From positions 399,578 to 463,577 of the forward strand of contig NZ_CP059207.1 of NCBI RefSeq assembly GCF_014252035.1: a stretch of 64,000 nt of DNA, read 5' to 3'. The notes under the pieces are model-generated. The model was not told the origin of the DNA and did not search any database. It worked only from the letters and a program-made list of their open reading frames with translations. The translations under genes and the position numbers were made by a program. The DNA is from Blattabacterium cuenoti. Its GTDB lineage: Bacteria; Bacteroidota; Bacteroidia; Flavobacteriales; Blattabacteriaceae. Positions 12,521 to 38,050 of the stretch are shown here, in pieces. How positions within the stretch are numbered: the first letter of the stretch is position 1; every line of letters begins with the position of its first letter.

Positions 12521-12578
12521 AAAAATATAATTCTTTGTTATTATTAATATAAGTATTTTTAAAAATATTACCATTTAA

Positions 12579-12593
12579 TGACTTTTTGTCATA
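12579..12593. repeat. Small inverted repeat upstream of dnaK
   Basis: ATGAC and GTCAT arms are separated by five T residues. It lies 72 bp upstream of the sigma-54-like element of dnaK, in the 196 bp region between the divergent rplM and dnaK genes. The same half-site, in the opposite arrangement, occurs upstream of groES. It could be an activator-binding site or chance; the arms are short. Confidence 0.3.
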
Positions 12594-12664: not shown

Positions 12665-12680
12665 TGGCATAATGATTGTT
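12665..12680 (+). promoter_or_regulatory. Sigma-54-like (-24/-12) promoter element of dnaK
   Basis: The sequence TGGCATAATGATTGTT fits the sigma-54 pattern TGGCAC-N5-TTGCT: the -24 GG is at 12666-12667, then 10 bases, then GT in place of the usual GC at 12678-12679. The first base is 52 bp before the dnaK ATG, close to the 50 bp for the matching element of groES. The implied start of transcription is about 12690. The -12 GT is a known kind of weakening, so this is less certain than the groES site. Confidence 0.5.
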
Positions 12681-12716: not shown

Positions 12717-14609
12717 ATGAGTAAAATTATAGGAATAGATTTAGGAACTACAAATTCTTGTGTCGCTGTAATGGAGATTAATGATCCTGTTGTTATACCA
12801 AATTCTGAAGGAAAAAGAACGACTCCATCCATAGTTGCTTTTGTAGAAGGTGGAGAAAGAAAAATAGGAGATCCAGCAAAAAGACAAGCAGTTACTAATC
12901 CTAGTAAAACCATTTTTTCTATTAAAAGATTCATGGGAAGAATGTATTCAGAAGTGACAGAAGAACTAAAACATGTTCCTTATAAAGTAATAAAAGGAGG
13001 AAATAATACGCCTCGTGTAGACATAGAAGGAAGATTATATGCGCCTCAAGAAATATCTGCAATGATTTTGCAAAAAATGAAAAAAACAGCTGAAGATTAT
13101 TTAGGAACAGAAATAAATAGAGCTGTAATTACAGTTCCAGCATATTTTAATGATGCACAGAGACAAGCTACAAAAGAAGCTGGAGAAATAGCAGGGTTAA
13201 AGGTAGAAAGAATTATTAATGAACCTACTGCTGCTGCTTTAGCTTATGGAATGGATAAAAATAAACAAAACAAAAAAATAGTAGTATACGATTTAGGAGG
13301 AGGAACTTTTGATGTTTCCATTTTAGAATTAGGTGATGGAGTTTTTGAAGTTCTTTCAACCAATGGTGATACTCACTTAGGAGGAGATGATTTTGATCAA
13401 GTTATCATTAATTATCTCGCTGATGAGTTTAAATATAAAGAAGGATTAGATTTAAGGAAAGACCCTATGGCATTACAACGTTTAAAAGAAGCTTCAGAAA
13501 AAGCGAAAATAGAATTATCCTCTTCTAATCAAACGGAAATTAACCTTCCGTATATTACAGCTACAGATTCTGGGCCTAAACATTTAGTCATAACTTTAAC
13601 TCGTTCTAAATTTGAACAACTATCAGAAAATTTGATTAAAAGATCAATAAATCCATGTTCTAAGGCATTAAAAGATGCAAATTTGACTACTAAAAATATT
13701 GATGAGGTTATTTTGGTAGGTGGATCTACTCGTATACCTAAAGTACAAGAAGAAGTAGAAAAATTTTTTAATAAAAAACCATCTAAAGGAGTTAATCCAG
13801 ATGAAGTAGTAGCTATTGGTGCTGCAATACAGGGAGGAGTTTTAACAGGAGATGTACAAGACGTATTGTTATTAGATGTTACACCTTTATCTTTAGGAAT
13901 TGAAACTTTAGGTGGTGTATTTACAAAATTAATTGGTTCAAATACAACTATACCAACTAAAAAATCAGAAACATTTTCCACAGCTTCTGATAATCAATCA
14001 GCTGTTACTATAAGAGTTGGACAAGGAGAAAGACCTATTTTTAAAGATAATAAAGAAATAGGTAGATTTGATTTAGTAGATATTCCTCCTGCTCCTAGAG
14101 GGGTTCCTCAAATAGAAGTAACTTTCGATATAGATGCTAATGGTATACTTAACGTTTCTGCAAAAGATAAAGGTACCGGGAAAGAACAATCAATACGAAT
14201 TGAAACATCTTCTGGATTAAATCAAGAAGAAATAGAAAAAATGAAAATGGAAGCAAAAGAAAATGCTAAAATGGATGAAAAAATAAAAGAAGAAATCAAT
14301 AAGTTAAATACTGCAGATAATCAAATATTTCAAACAGAAAAACAATTAAAAGATAATGAAAATAAATTATCTGAAGATAACAAAAAAAATATAAAAAAAC
14401 ATTTAGAAGAATTAAAAAAAGTTCATTCAAAAAAAGATTTTTCCGCTATTGATAATTGTATTAAAAATTTAAATGAAGCTTGGGCAAAAGCATCCCAAGA
14501 TTTATATAAAACGAAAAACGATAAATCAAATGAAAAAAATACTAATAATAGTCAAAAAGAAAAAGGAAATGAAAATATACAAGATGTTGATTATGAAGAA
14601 GTAAAATAA
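12717..14609 (+). CDS. dnaK: Chaperone DnaK (Hsp70)
   Basis: DnaK is the ATP-driven Hsp70 chaperone. The nucleotide-binding domain begins [16 protein letters not shown] (residues 4-19) and contains [17 protein letters not shown] (about 190-206) and [16 protein letters not shown] (about 336). The substrate-binding domain and helical lid follow, and the protein ends in DVDYEEVK, the Hsp70 C-terminal motif. Length is 630 residues. It stands alone between divergent rplM and convergent psd; dnaJ and grpE are not in this window. Its promoter resembles that of groESL. Confidence 0.99.
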
Positions 14610-32587: not shown

Positions 32588-33949
32588 ATGAAATCCAAAA
32601 ATAATTTGTACAAATATTTTTACATAGAAAATTATGGTTGTCAAATGAATGTTTCAGATAGTGAAATAATTACTTCTATTTTATTAAATCACGGATTTTT
32701 TCTTTCAGAAAAAATTGAAACAACAGACATTGTATTATTAAATGCTTGTTCTATAAGAGAAAAAGCAGAATTAAGTTTAACTAGAAAGTTAGAACAATTA
32801 AAATTTTTAAAGAAAAAAAATAAAATTTTATTTGGAATAACAGGTTGTTTTTCTAAAAAACTAAAAGAATTTTTTCTAAAAGAAAAAAAAGTAGATTTTT
32901 TTGTTGAACCAGATTTTTATAAAAAAATACCTAATATTATTCAATATATTTCAAATGATAAAATAATACCCCCATCTTTTTTTTCAAAAAACAGAAAAGA
33001 AACATATGAAGATATTATTCCATTTTCTGATAATAAAAAAAAGATTACAAAATTTTTAAGCATAACAAGAGGTTGTAATAATATGTGTACATTTTGTATA
33101 GTGCCATTTACTAGAGGAAGAGAGAAGAGCAGTAATCCTTATTCTATAATAAAAGAATGTAAACGATTATATAAAATCGGATATAAAGAAATAACTCTTT
33201 TAGGACAAAATGTTGATTCATATCAGTATATAATAAAAAATAAATCTATAAAAAAAGATATGATGGTTAAATTTTCTGATCTTTTAAGCTTATTAGCTAC
33301 AGAAGTTCCTTTTATGAGAATACGATTTTCTACATCCAATCCACATGATATGTCCGAAAGTGTTTTAAACGTTATCTCAAAATATCCTAATATATGCAAA
33401 CATATACATTTGCCAGTTCAATCTGGAAGTAATAAAATATTAAAATTAATGAATAGAAAATATTCACGTGAAAAATATATTAATTTAATAGAAAAAATTA
33501 GAAATATTATTCCTGAATGCTCTATTTCTCATGATATTATGACTGGATTTTGTGGAGAAAATGAAAAAGATCATCAAGATACTATTAGTTTAATGAATGA
33601 AATTAAATATAATTATGGTTACATGTTTTCCTATTCTCCAAGACCAGGTACATTTTCTTACAAAAAATTAAAAGATGATGTTCCAAAACATATAAAAAAA
33701 GAAAGACTAAAAGAAATTATAGATTTGCAAAGAGAACATTCGTTATTTCGTATGAAAGAATTTATAGGAAAAACGCAAGAAATATTGATAGAAGGAATTT
33801 CAAAAAGAAATAACAAAAACTGGTATGGTAGAAATACTCAAAATATAATTGTAGTTTTCCCCAAAAAAAACTTTTTGTCAATAGGTGATACTATTAACGT
33901 AAAAATACTAAACAATACATCTGCAACTTTAATAGGTGAAATTGATTAA
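32588..33949 (+). CDS. miaB: tRNA-2-methylthio-N6-dimethylallyladenosine synthase MiaB
   Basis: MiaB adds the methylthio group to i6A37 of tRNAs, acting after MiaA (52632). The N-terminal domain has cluster cysteines Cys18, Cys54 and Cys87. The radical SAM cluster is Cys163, Cys167 and Cys170 (CNNMCTFC). A TRAM RNA-binding domain ends the protein. The length of 453 is full. The next gene begins within or just after its 3' end, as in free-living Flavobacteriia (miaB, sigma-54 activator, lptE, secG, groES). Confidence 0.97.
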   Translation: MKSKNNLYKYFYIENYGCQMNVSDSEIITSILLNHGFFLSEKIETTDIVLLNACSIREKAELSLTRKLEQLKFLKKKNKILFGITGCFSKKLKEFFLKEKKVDFFVEPDFYKKIPNIIQYISNDKIIPPSFFSKNRKETYEDIIPFSDNKKKITKFLSITRGCNNMCTFCIVPFTRGREKSSNPYSIIKECKRLYKIGYKEITLLGQNVDSYQYIIKNKSIKKDMMVKFSDLLSLLATEVPFMRIRFSTSNPHDMSESVLNVISKYPNICKHIHLPVQSGSNKILKLMNRKYSREKYINLIEKIRNIIPECSISHDIMTGFCGENEKDHQDTISLMNEIKYNYGYMFSYSPRPGTFSYKKLKDDVPKHIKKERLKEIIDLQREHSLFRMKEFIGKTQEILIEGISKRNNKNWYGRNTQNIIVVFPKKNFLSIGDTINVKILNNTSATLIGEID

Positions 33950-33974: not shown

Positions 33975-35258
33975 ATGGAATTTATCCAAAGTATCAAACA
34001 AAAATTTGGAATTATAGGATACGATTACGCTTTACATAGAGCTATAGAAAAATCAATACAAGTCGCACCTACTGATATTTCGGTATTAGTTCTTGGAGAA
34101 AGTGGAGTTGGAAAAGAATTTATTCCAAAAATAATACATCAATTTTCTTCTAGAAAACATAATTCTTATATTGCTGTAAATTGTGGAGCTATACCTGAAG
34201 GAACAATTGATAGTGAACTTTTTGGTCATGAAAAAGGGTCTTTTACAGGAGCTACAAGTATGAGAAAGGGTTATTTTGAAGTAGCAAATGGAGGTACAAT
34301 ATTTCTCGATGAAGTAGGAGAACTTCCTTTAACAACTCAAGTACGTTTACTTAGAGTTTTAGAATCTGGGGAATTTATTAAAGTAGGATCTTCAAAAATA
34401 CAAAAAGTAAATATAAGAATAGTTGCAGCTACTAATTTAAATATGATAGAATCTATACAAAAAGGAAAATTTAGAGAAGATTTGTATTATCGTTTAAATA
34501 CAGTACAAATAAATGTTCCTACTTTACGTTCTCGTAAAAATGACATAAAATTATTATTTAAAAAATTTTCTAATGATTTTGCTGATAAATATCACATGCC
34601 ACCAGTAAAATTAACAGAAGAATCTTTAAAATATCTAGAAAATTACTCTTGGCCAGGAAATATAAGACAATTAAAAAATGTTACAGAACAAATTTCTGTA
34701 GTAGAAGCAGAAAGAGAAATTTCAATTGAAAAATTGAAAGAATATATTCCAGATAATATTCCTTCAATATCTTCTTTGTCTCGTAATGATTTTAACAATA
34801 CTTTTATACATGATTTTTCTAAAGAAAGAGACTTTCTTTACAAAATATTATTTGATATGAAAAAAAGTTTAAATGATTTAAAAAATATGGTATTTCAACT
34901 AATAAAAGATTATCCGAATAATAAGTTTTTAGAAAAAAATCAACACCTTATAAATAAAATATATGGTCCAATTATTCATCATCAAAGTGCAGAAAGAAAG
35001 GATAATTTTTTTCAAATAGAACATTCTTCTGATTCTGAAAAAAGATATTATAATAAAAATTCTAATTGTAATAATAAAGAAATTCATAAAGATTTTATCA
35101 AGAAAGAAGAAATACCTTCTTTTTCCTTACGGAAGAAAGAAATAGAGTTTATTCAAAAAGCTTTGAAAAAAAATAATGGAAAAAGAAGCAAAGCTGCTAA
35201 AGAACTAGGAATTTCTGAAAGGACATTATATAGAAAAATTAAACAATATGGGTTATAA
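33975..35258 (+). CDS. Sigma-54-dependent transcription activator without sensor domain
   Basis: This AAA+ activator would open promoters bound by RNA polymerase with sigma-54. The ATG at 33975 (MEFIQSIKQKFG) fits relatives better than the upstream GTG at 33936, which overlaps miaB. Counting from that ATG, Walker A is GESGVGKE (41-48), the sigma-54-contact loop is GSFTGA (88-93, usual GAFTGA), and Walker B is GGTIFLDE (106-113). A linker of about 100 residues precedes a Fis-like helix-turn-helix (RSKAAKELGISERTLYRKI). There is no receiver, GAF or PAS domain. lptE starts inside its 3' end. Confidence 0.93.
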   Translation: MEFIQSIKQKFGIIGYDYALHRAIEKSIQVAPTDISVLVLGESGVGKEFIPKIIHQFSSRKHNSYIAVNCGAIPEGTIDSELFGHEKGSFTGATSMRKGYFEVANGGTIFLDEVGELPLTTQVRLLRVLESGEFIKVGSSKIQKVNIRIVAATNLNMIESIQKGKFREDLYYRLNTVQINVPTLRSRKNDIKLLFKKFSNDFADKYHMPPVKLTEESLKYLENYSWPGNIRQLKNVTEQISVVEAEREISIEKLKEYIPDNIPSISSLSRNDFNNTFIHDFSKERDFLYKILFDMKKSLNDLKNMVFQLIKDYPNNKFLEKNQHLINKIYGPIIHHQSAERKDNFFQIEHSSDSEKRYYNKNSNCNNKEIHKDFIKKEEIPSFSLRKKEIEFIQKALKKNNGKRSKAAKELGISERTLYRKIKQYGL

Positions 35259-35718
35259 ATACATTTTATTCATTTTTTCTTTTGTATTATCCTCTTGCAA
35301 TTCACCTTTATTTCCACTTCTTTATAAAAGAAAAACAATAGAGATTGGTAATTTTATAAATACAATGTGTCTTCCTAAAATATGCATTTCTTCTGATTTT
35401 AGAAAAAATTTTGAAGAATATATAGAAAGACATAGTCCTTTACAAATAGTTTCTCAAAATGGAGAAATTTTTATAGAAGGAGCTTTTTTAGATTATGTAT
35501 TAATGTCACAAGTAAATTCTCCAATAAAAAAAATTAAACTAATAATGAAAATATATTATAAAGATAAAATGCATCCTCAAAATAATTCGGTAAAATATTT
35601 ATCTTCAACAGAATATTTTTCATATAAAAAAGATCCATTTTTAAGAAAATCTGTAAATAAGATTATGAGAAATTTAACAGTAAAAATATTTAATATTATC
35701 AGTGATATAAATCAATAA
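35248..35718 (+). CDS. lptE: LptE-like lipopolysaccharide assembly lipoprotein
   Basis: LptE plugs the LptD pore that delivers LPS to the outer leaflet. A signal peptide ends at a lipobox (FVLSSC, Cys17). The remaining 140 residues are weakly conserved, with IEIGNFIN and ISSDFRKNFEEYIERHSPLQ fitting the LptE pattern. The call rests mainly on the lipobox, the size (156 residues) and the conserved position between the sigma-54 activator and secG. It overlaps the activator gene by 11 nt. Confidence 0.72.
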   Translation: MGYKYILFIFSFVLSSCNSPLFPLLYKRKTIEIGNFINTMCLPKICISSDFRKNFEEYIERHSPLQIVSQNGEIFIEGAFLDYVLMSQVNSPIKKIKLIMKIYYKDKMHPQNNSVKYLSSTEYFSYKKDPFLRKSVNKIMRNLTVKIFNIISDINQ

Positions 35719-35726
35719 AAATATAT

Positions 35727-35972
35727 ATGTATTTAACGATTAGTATATTCGGTTTTTTTATTATTATAGCATGCATTTTATTGATATTAATAATATTAAT
35801 ACAAAATCCAAATAAAGATAGTATATCTCAATCTTTTTTAGATAATAATTTTAAATTTCTTGGTGTAAAAAGAACTAATTCTTTCTTGGAAGGAGTTACA
35901 TGGTTTTTATCTATTGTTATATTTTTTTTAACTATAGTTTTTAATATTTTTTTGAAATTAAAACAACAGTAA
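35727..35972 (+). CDS. secG: Preprotein translocase subunit SecG
   Basis: SecG is the small accessory subunit of the SecYEG channel. The 81 residues have two membrane segments (about 4-26 and 58-76) separated by a loop with ILIQNPNKDSISQSF, which matches the SecG core pattern ILLQ-x-x-K. Position between lptE and groES is the usual Flavobacteriia order. Confidence 0.85.
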   Translation: MYLTISIFGFFIIIACILLILIILIQNPNKDSISQSFLDNNFKFLGVKRTNSFLEGVTWFLSIVIFFLTIVFNIFLKLKQQ

Positions 35973-35977
35973 AGTAT

Positions 35978-35988
35978 GTCATTATGAC
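35978..35988. repeat. Short inverted repeat upstream of groES
   Basis: GTCAT and ATGAC arms are separated by a single T. It lies 34 bp upstream of the sigma-54-like element of groES and just after the secG stop. The half-site matches that of the repeat before dnaK (12579-12593) but the arms face the other way. Function is unknown; chance cannot be excluded. Confidence 0.3.
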
Positions 35989-36021
35989 GTTTTATTATAA
36001 ATTATTATGTCTTTTTCATTG

Positions 36022-36038
36022 TGGCATGTTTTTGGCTT
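36022..36038 (+). promoter_or_regulatory. Sigma-54-like (-24/-12) promoter element of groES-groEL
   Basis: TGGCATGTTTTTGGCTT has the GG-N10-GC core of sigma-54 promoters (GG at 36023-36024, GC at 36035-36036) and six of six bases at the -24 box except T for C in TGGCAC. The element starts 50 bp before the groES ATG, and transcription would start near 36048. No CIRCE repeat and no other promoter was found in the 99 bp secG-groES gap. A sigma-54 activator is encoded three genes upstream. Confidence 0.6.
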
Positions 36039-36071
36039 CTTAGTAATTTAGAATCGTAAAAATTATAAAAT

Positions 36072-36350
36072 ATGGTGGAAGTAAAGATAAAACCTTTAGC
36101 AGATCGTGTCCTTGTACAACCTGATCCTGCTGAAACAAAAACTTCATCAGGCATTATTATCCCTGATACTGCGAAAGAAAAACCGCAAAAGGGAACTGTA
36201 ATTGCGGTAGGAAAAGGAAAAAAAAATGAGCCTATGATTTTAAAGGAAGGAGATAGAGTGTTATATGGTAAGTATTCCGGTACAGAATTAAAATGGGAAG
36301 GAGAGGAATATCTTATTATGAGAGAATCTGATGTAATAGCTATTATATAA
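36072..36350 (+). CDS. groES: Co-chaperonin GroES
   Basis: GroES caps the GroEL chamber. The protein (92 residues) starts [19 protein letters not shown], has the mobile loop [18 protein letters not shown], and ends [21 protein letters not shown] with the usual last strand. It precedes groEL by 59 bp. The shared upstream -24/-12 element would drive both. Confidence 0.98.

Positions 36351-36373: not shown

Positions 36374-38050
<1,677 letters not shown>

Follow-up and report, generated by a model that had tools for sequence, protein, structure and literature searches.

Heat-shock control, which commonly takes in both groESL and dnaK-grpE-dnaJ, is exerted by sigma-32 in enterics and by HrcA/CIRCE in Firmicutes and others. 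In Flavobacterium psychrophilum, groESL, dnaK, grpE-dnaJ, lon and htpG are instead found at mapped sigma-54 type promoters and fall into one co-expression cluster (PMC9723704). That species has three activator genes, one of which is followed by lptE, and the paper assigned no activator or binding site (PMC9723704). A 2025 survey reports GroES, GroEL, GrpE, DnaJ and DnaK as enriched among predicted sigma-54 targets in Flavobacteriia (PMC12316311).

For Blattabacterium, a flavobacterial endosymbiont of cockroaches with a tiny genome, published gene lists contain rpoD and rpoN only, and the retention of rpoN in Blattabacterium and two relatives has been called unusual, with a tentative link to nitrogen in one of them (PMC3971599). 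A search of the open-access literature returned no paper on the groES promoter of Blattabacterium described here, or on the palindrome that accompanies it. The DNA analyzed, henceforth referred to as the window, is a stretch of 64,000 nucleotides from Blattabacterium cuenoti (NZ_CP059207.1, positions 399,578 to 463,577), and all positions are those of the window unless a genome is named.

Results

The features of the groES and dnaK loci are listed in Table 1. The element TGGCATGTTTTTGGCT lies in the 99-bp gap between the end of secG (35972) and groES, 50 bp upstream of the ATG at 36072. Its TGG occupies 36022-36024 and its GG 36023-36024, followed by N10 and by GC at 36035-36036, and it combines a TGGCAYR -24 element with GG and GC dinucleotides ten bases apart. 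A first-pass annotation had quoted a sequence with GG-N10-GC at 36022-36038, 50 bp upstream of groES in a 99-bp gap, and had proposed a sigma-54 type promoter; the sequence is as quoted, and the proposal is well supported by rpoN, by an intact activator gene nearby and by the conservation of GG-N10-GC. Bare GG-N10-GC was rejected as promoter evidence, since the window contains 100 matches compared to 41 expected in shuffles. The longer form TGGCACG-N4-TTGCW, from which the groES site departs by two mismatches, is at chance level when up to three mismatches are allowed (19 in the window, 17 expected). Since the bare pattern is too common to be informative, the case for a groES promoter was built on conservation and position. 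Statements on the whole of this genome are from pattern searches, in which exact TGGCANRN4TNGC was found at groES, at grpE and in two copies within antisense 16S rRNA only.

Conservation was determined over 170 bp of aligned upstream sequence from the 49 genomes of the genus, taken to be Blattabacterium, in which groES was found (about 0.5-0.64 Mb). The 17-mer beginning at 36022 is the most conserved stretch, with a mean identity of 0.956 compared to an upstream average of 0.61, and the next independent conserved stretch begins at 35975 (identity 0.82). GG-N10-GC is kept in all 49 genomes (48 within 170 bp, plus G009). Of the 48 genomes with the core TTTGGCATGTTTTTGGCT within 170 bp of groES, 43 have it unchanged. 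An alignment of relatives had been suggested in the first-pass annotation as a check, and GG-N10-GC is indeed the strongest upstream feature of groES in the genus. Genome G009 was considered as a promoter-less case and rejected, as its promoter is displaced about 140 bp further from groES: an exact TTTGGCATGTTTTTGGC stands 198 bp before the gene, the intact promoter is separated from groES by A/T-rich DNA of repeat-like character (locus L113), and a palindrome is found at positions 416042-416056 of that genome, 51 bp from the promoter. Promoter and palindrome are both degenerate in G015.

A single rpoN of 505 codons, with all domains and the RpoN box ARRTVSKYRD, is present in the genome, as the promoter proposal demanded, and the gene is intact in 49/49 genus genomes. 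The activator gene placed three genes upstream of groES by the earlier annotation is where it was claimed to be, and it is likewise intact in all 49. Its product contains a Sigma54_activat AAA+ domain with a GAFTGA-type loop and a C-terminal Fis-type HTH (PF02954), together with Walker A/B motifs (GESGVGKE, GTIFLDE) and an arginine-finger region. The loop reads GSFTGA here; among 28 relatives it reads GSFTGA in 10 and GAFTGA in 18. Some 25 residues stand ahead of the AAA+ domain, and the protein has a variable linker of 120 residues; its best NCBIfam matches are all below cut-off. Across the 49 genomes there is exactly one such activator per genome at ≥ 215 bits, always in the groES neighborhood, and other PF00158 matches reach about 40 bits at most, the one identified being ClpB. 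The HTH is conserved at 70% of positions on average between Blattabacterium and free-living relatives. In these, the activator orthologue is encoded 2.8-4 kb upstream of groES and also starts just ahead of the AAA+ domain. The listed GTG start of the window gene (33936) is probably too early, because the orthologues start at the position of an ATG at 33975, probably the true start.

Table 1 Features of the groES and dnaK loci in the window (EBP, sigma-54 activator).
Feature	Position	Strand	Basis or remark
Palindrome variant ATGACTTTTTGTCAT upstream of dnaK	12578..12592	.	
Predicted sigma-54 -24/-12 promoter of dnaK, TGGCATAATGATTGT	12665..12679	+	TGGCATAATNATTG in 18/18 genomes read
dnaK	12717..14609	+	Pfam HSP70
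miaB-like gene, first of run miaB-EBP-lptE-secG	32588..33949	+	Radical_SAM, UPF0004, TRAM
Only sigma-54 activator (EBP) of the genome	33936..35258	+	AAA+ domain, lid, Fis-type HTH; no receiver domain
Small lipoprotein-like gene, lptE position	35248..35718	+	Without a Pfam match; name based on synteny alone
secG	35727..35972	+	
Palindrome ATGTCATTATGACGT, proposed activator binding site	35976..35990	.	Conservation and helical spacing in free-living relatives
Predicted sigma-54 -24/-12 promoter of groESL, TGGCATGTTTTTGGCT	36022..36037	+	Best-conserved 17-mer upstream of groES (49 genomes)
groES	36072..36350	+	Pfam Cpn10
groEL	36410..38050	+	Pfam Cpn60_TCP1

The second most conserved element upstream of groES in the 49 genomes is the palindrome ATGTCATNATGACAT, which the window carries with one mismatch and with its center 39 bp upstream of the first base of TGG. 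The first-pass annotation had seen the promoter elements and had not reported this palindrome. Few sites occur per genome, and throughout the genus they are located upstream of groES and of grpE and, in many of the genomes, of miaB as well; control counts are zero in nearly all genomes. Sister genomes (e.g. L116, L121, L124) carry ATGWCATNATGWCAT just before miaB, about 3.5 kb upstream of groES and without a -24/-12 element, while this genome lacks a copy at miaB. As the run of genes that includes the activator begins with miaB, a palindrome at this position suggests that the activator controls its own operon. Spacing of the groES palindrome in Blattabacterium is 49-50 bp in 25 genomes, 39-42 in six and 19 in one. 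Phasing within Blattabacterium alone was not significant (10 modal spacings, p about 0.14), so the phasing argument is carried by the free-living set presented below.

Similar pairs of elements were observed at two further chaperone loci. The predicted dnaK promoter and ATGACTTTTTGTCAT are retained with small changes in the 18 genomes read, although conservation does not extend to the C of the -12 GC. A whole-genome pattern search located TGGCAAATATTTTGC 65 bp before grpE (Pfam GrpE), with an exact palindrome upstream and dnaJ as the next gene. TGGCAAA-N3-TTTGC was present at grpE in 17/17 genomes read, and in 16 of these the palindrome center lies 18-20 bp upstream of it. The search for further sites reached one mismatch from the consensus, and no other intergenic site was found among the matches checked, which lie within genes or 16S rRNA. 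Candidates rejected were clpB as a fourth target, which has no TGGCA site upstream, and the sites near leuS (515142/515217) and other one-mismatch matches, which are inside genes. With a dnaK promoter in the window and a grpE-dnaJ promoter elsewhere in the genome, the groES element would belong to a small regulon and not be a peculiarity of groESL.

Separately, an exact tandem repeat of about 2.0 kb (offset 2001 bp) was noted beside the rRNA operon (G000:C1:348205-352207; L315, 2205-6207). It holds the 5' part of 16S rRNA, giving a second, partial 16S beside the full one, and is either a true duplication or an assembly artefact.

Eighty other Bacteroidota groES loci, from Algoriphagus to Prevotella, were then compared over 170 bp upstream. 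TGGCAYR-N5-NG[CA] is found upstream of groES in 68 of the 80 loci, compared to 0.27 in shuffles and 8/3363 in other stretches of the same loci. Control of a chaperonin by sigma-54, which had been called unusual in the first-pass annotation, is therefore the rule in the phylum, and the groESL start has been mapped in F. psychrophilum (PMC9723704). Very likely, then, the groES element is a real promoter, and one of a kind that is ordinary in Bacteroidota. The strict palindrome pattern of Blattabacterium occurs in 16/80 loci, with center-to-TGG distances of 19, 29-31, 39-40, 50-51, 72, 82-83 or 92 bp. When one half-site is relaxed, 32 loci carry it, counted on the 68 with a strict promoter, and 31 of these 32 fall on a ladder of 29-30, 39-41, 50-51, 72, 82 and 92 bp. 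For the strict pattern the best period is 10.6 bp (about 10.5 for the ladder), and none of 200,000 random sets equalled the phasing; because the sample contains related species that are not fully independent, such p-values overstate the evidence, and what counts is the spread over orders. Some phasing was also seen with a control pattern whose center is 4 bp long (7 sites). Spacing on a helical ladder is expected of an activator site held on one face of the helix, and the palindrome may well be such an upstream site.

It is conceivable, though improbable in our estimation, that the sigma-54 promoter is genuine and the palindrome is the site of a different regulator or part of a terminator that ends the upstream operon. 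The equivalent sequence in Flavobacterium does lie inside a terminator-like hairpin followed by T's, and the palindromes before miaB in many Blattabacterium genomes have no -24/-12 element; however, a terminator does not explain why the distance to the -24 element keeps the helical period in many genera, and grpE and dnaK carry the palindrome without an operon boundary of that kind. The genus has no other activator to which the site could be assigned, and the conservation of the activator HTH out to free-living relatives also argues against this explanation. As an observation on the Flavobacteriaceae loci (L037-L107), the hairpin that encloses the proposed activator site, TGCCAGC...GCTGGCATTTTT, is located between secG and groES.

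Other promoter types were sought upstream of groES. The best fit to CIRCE (TTAGCACTC-N9-GAGTGCTAA) near groES has 9/18 mismatches in this genome and at least five in any of the 49, and the sigma-A form TTG-N17-23-TAnnTTTG is present upstream of groES in 0/49 genomes. The absence of CIRCE, stated in the earlier annotation together with that of TAnnTTTG, was thus confirmed. Endosymbionts often lose alternative regulation, and this genome has TAATTTAG, with one mismatch, at about 36044, so that groESL might be transcribed from a primary sigma (sigma-A, TAnnTTTG) promoter with the conserved 17-mer serving as a repressor site, a leader signal or the like. We consider this very unlikely, as even TAnnTTTG by itself occurs in 2/49 upstream regions, the conserved stretch fits the sigma-54 consensus and recurs in like form before grpE and dnaK, and the promoter is gone in sister genera without rpoN.

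From the sigma-54 element, the groES transcript would be expected to start near 36048. Approximately at this position, many sister species have a small inverted repeat, AACGAT-TAGT-ATCGTT, which is only partly present in the corresponding region of this genome (36040-36065). In the published Bge genome, 33 bp of intergenic DNA upstream of GroEL are reported to have resisted pyrosequencing, probably due to secondary structure (PMC2768785), and this stretch might involve the groES upstream region.

Within the family, rpoN is kept in 6/9 genera. The promoter is present in genera g2, g4 and g7, and the palindrome also in g2 and g7. The rpoN-less genera g3, g5 and g6 have no groES promoter, and no activator was found between miaB and groES where the locus was read. 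Two relatives, G066 (263,431 bp) and G067 (309,299 bp), keep rpoN and the activator and have no clear -24/-12 element before groES, which indicates that retention is not strictly tied to groES. In the stretches read from the other genera of the family, neither dnaK nor grpE was found. The loss in G066 and G067, the degenerate elements in G015 and the missing miaB palindrome of this genome could be taken as signs of a decaying relic whose sigma-54 sites persist by descent and are out of use, but we consider this very unlikely, given that over 49 species the flanks drift and the elements do not, that G009 has kept promoter, palindrome and 51-bp spacing intact despite its insertion, and that every genome has open reading frames for rpoN and the activator.

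Discussion

The comparisons argue strongly that TGGCATGTTTTTGGCT is a sigma-54 promoter on which the nearby activator acts via the palindrome, and that dnaK and grpE-dnaJ are in the same regulon; we hold this reading with high confidence. The comparisons themselves show the elements, their conservation and helical spacing, the single rpoN and activator and the joint absence of these in sister genera; promoter use, binding of the activator to the palindrome and any response to stress are inferred. RNA polymerase with sigma-54 (RpoN) would transcribe groES-groEL from this element, while a dimer of the AAA+ activator would bind ATGTCATNATGACAT via its Fis-type HTH and, from the same helix face, use ATP to drive the formation of the open complex. 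This sigma factor and this activator would also serve dnaK and grpE-dnaJ, placing the Hsp60 and Hsp70 machines in one small regulon. Because it lacks a receiver or other N-terminal sensory domain, the activator is expected to be always active or to be controlled by a partner protein, e.g. through titration by free chaperones. The arrangement would then be a minimal circuit consisting of one sigma-54, one EBP and three chaperone promoters.

Such a circuit would be a reduced version of the sigma-54 regulon that covers the chaperone genes in free-living Bacteroidota. We somewhat favor the broader proposal that the ancestral control of chaperones (heat-shock type) in the whole phylum Bacteroidota consists of the groE-linked activator with its phased TGWCA-N3-TGWCA site, in place of sigma-32/HrcA, and that obligate symbionts keep rpoN only for this control, reduced to one sigma, one sensorless activator and three chaperone promoters. 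The circuit offers a concrete reason for the retention of rpoN by flavobacterial endosymbionts, and it points to an activator and binding site for a phylum-wide chaperone regulon whose regulator in F. psychrophilum is unassigned. As a sigma-54 system of very small size, it also allows the phasing of an enhancer to be followed through natural variation. What appears to be new is the palindrome with helical spacing, the same probable pair of elements at grpE-dnaJ and dnaK, and the joint absence of rpoN, the activator beside groES and the promoter in some genera of the family.

Among known systems, control by sigma-32 or HrcA/CIRCE differs in sigma factor and mechanism, and no CIRCE is seen here. 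EBPs of the PspF type, which have no N-terminal regulatory domain, similarly consist of an AAA+ domain followed by a Fis-type HTH without a receiver; they have another set of targets, the activator described here has its own 120-residue linker, and membership in that group is not claimed. The cross-phylum sigma-54 survey is a matrix prediction, whose relevant passages contain no analysis of enhancer sites, spacing or symbionts (PMC12316311). The closest counterpart is the set of sigma-54 (SM4) chaperone promoters of F. psychrophilum, cluster B254, in which groESL, dnaK and grpE-dnaJ are likewise under -24/-12 promoters and a promoter close by is listed for both the activator gene and lptE (PMC9723704). 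The F. psychrophilum regulon also includes lon, htpG, gliding motility and other genes, whereas one activator and three promoters were found here (PMC9723704).
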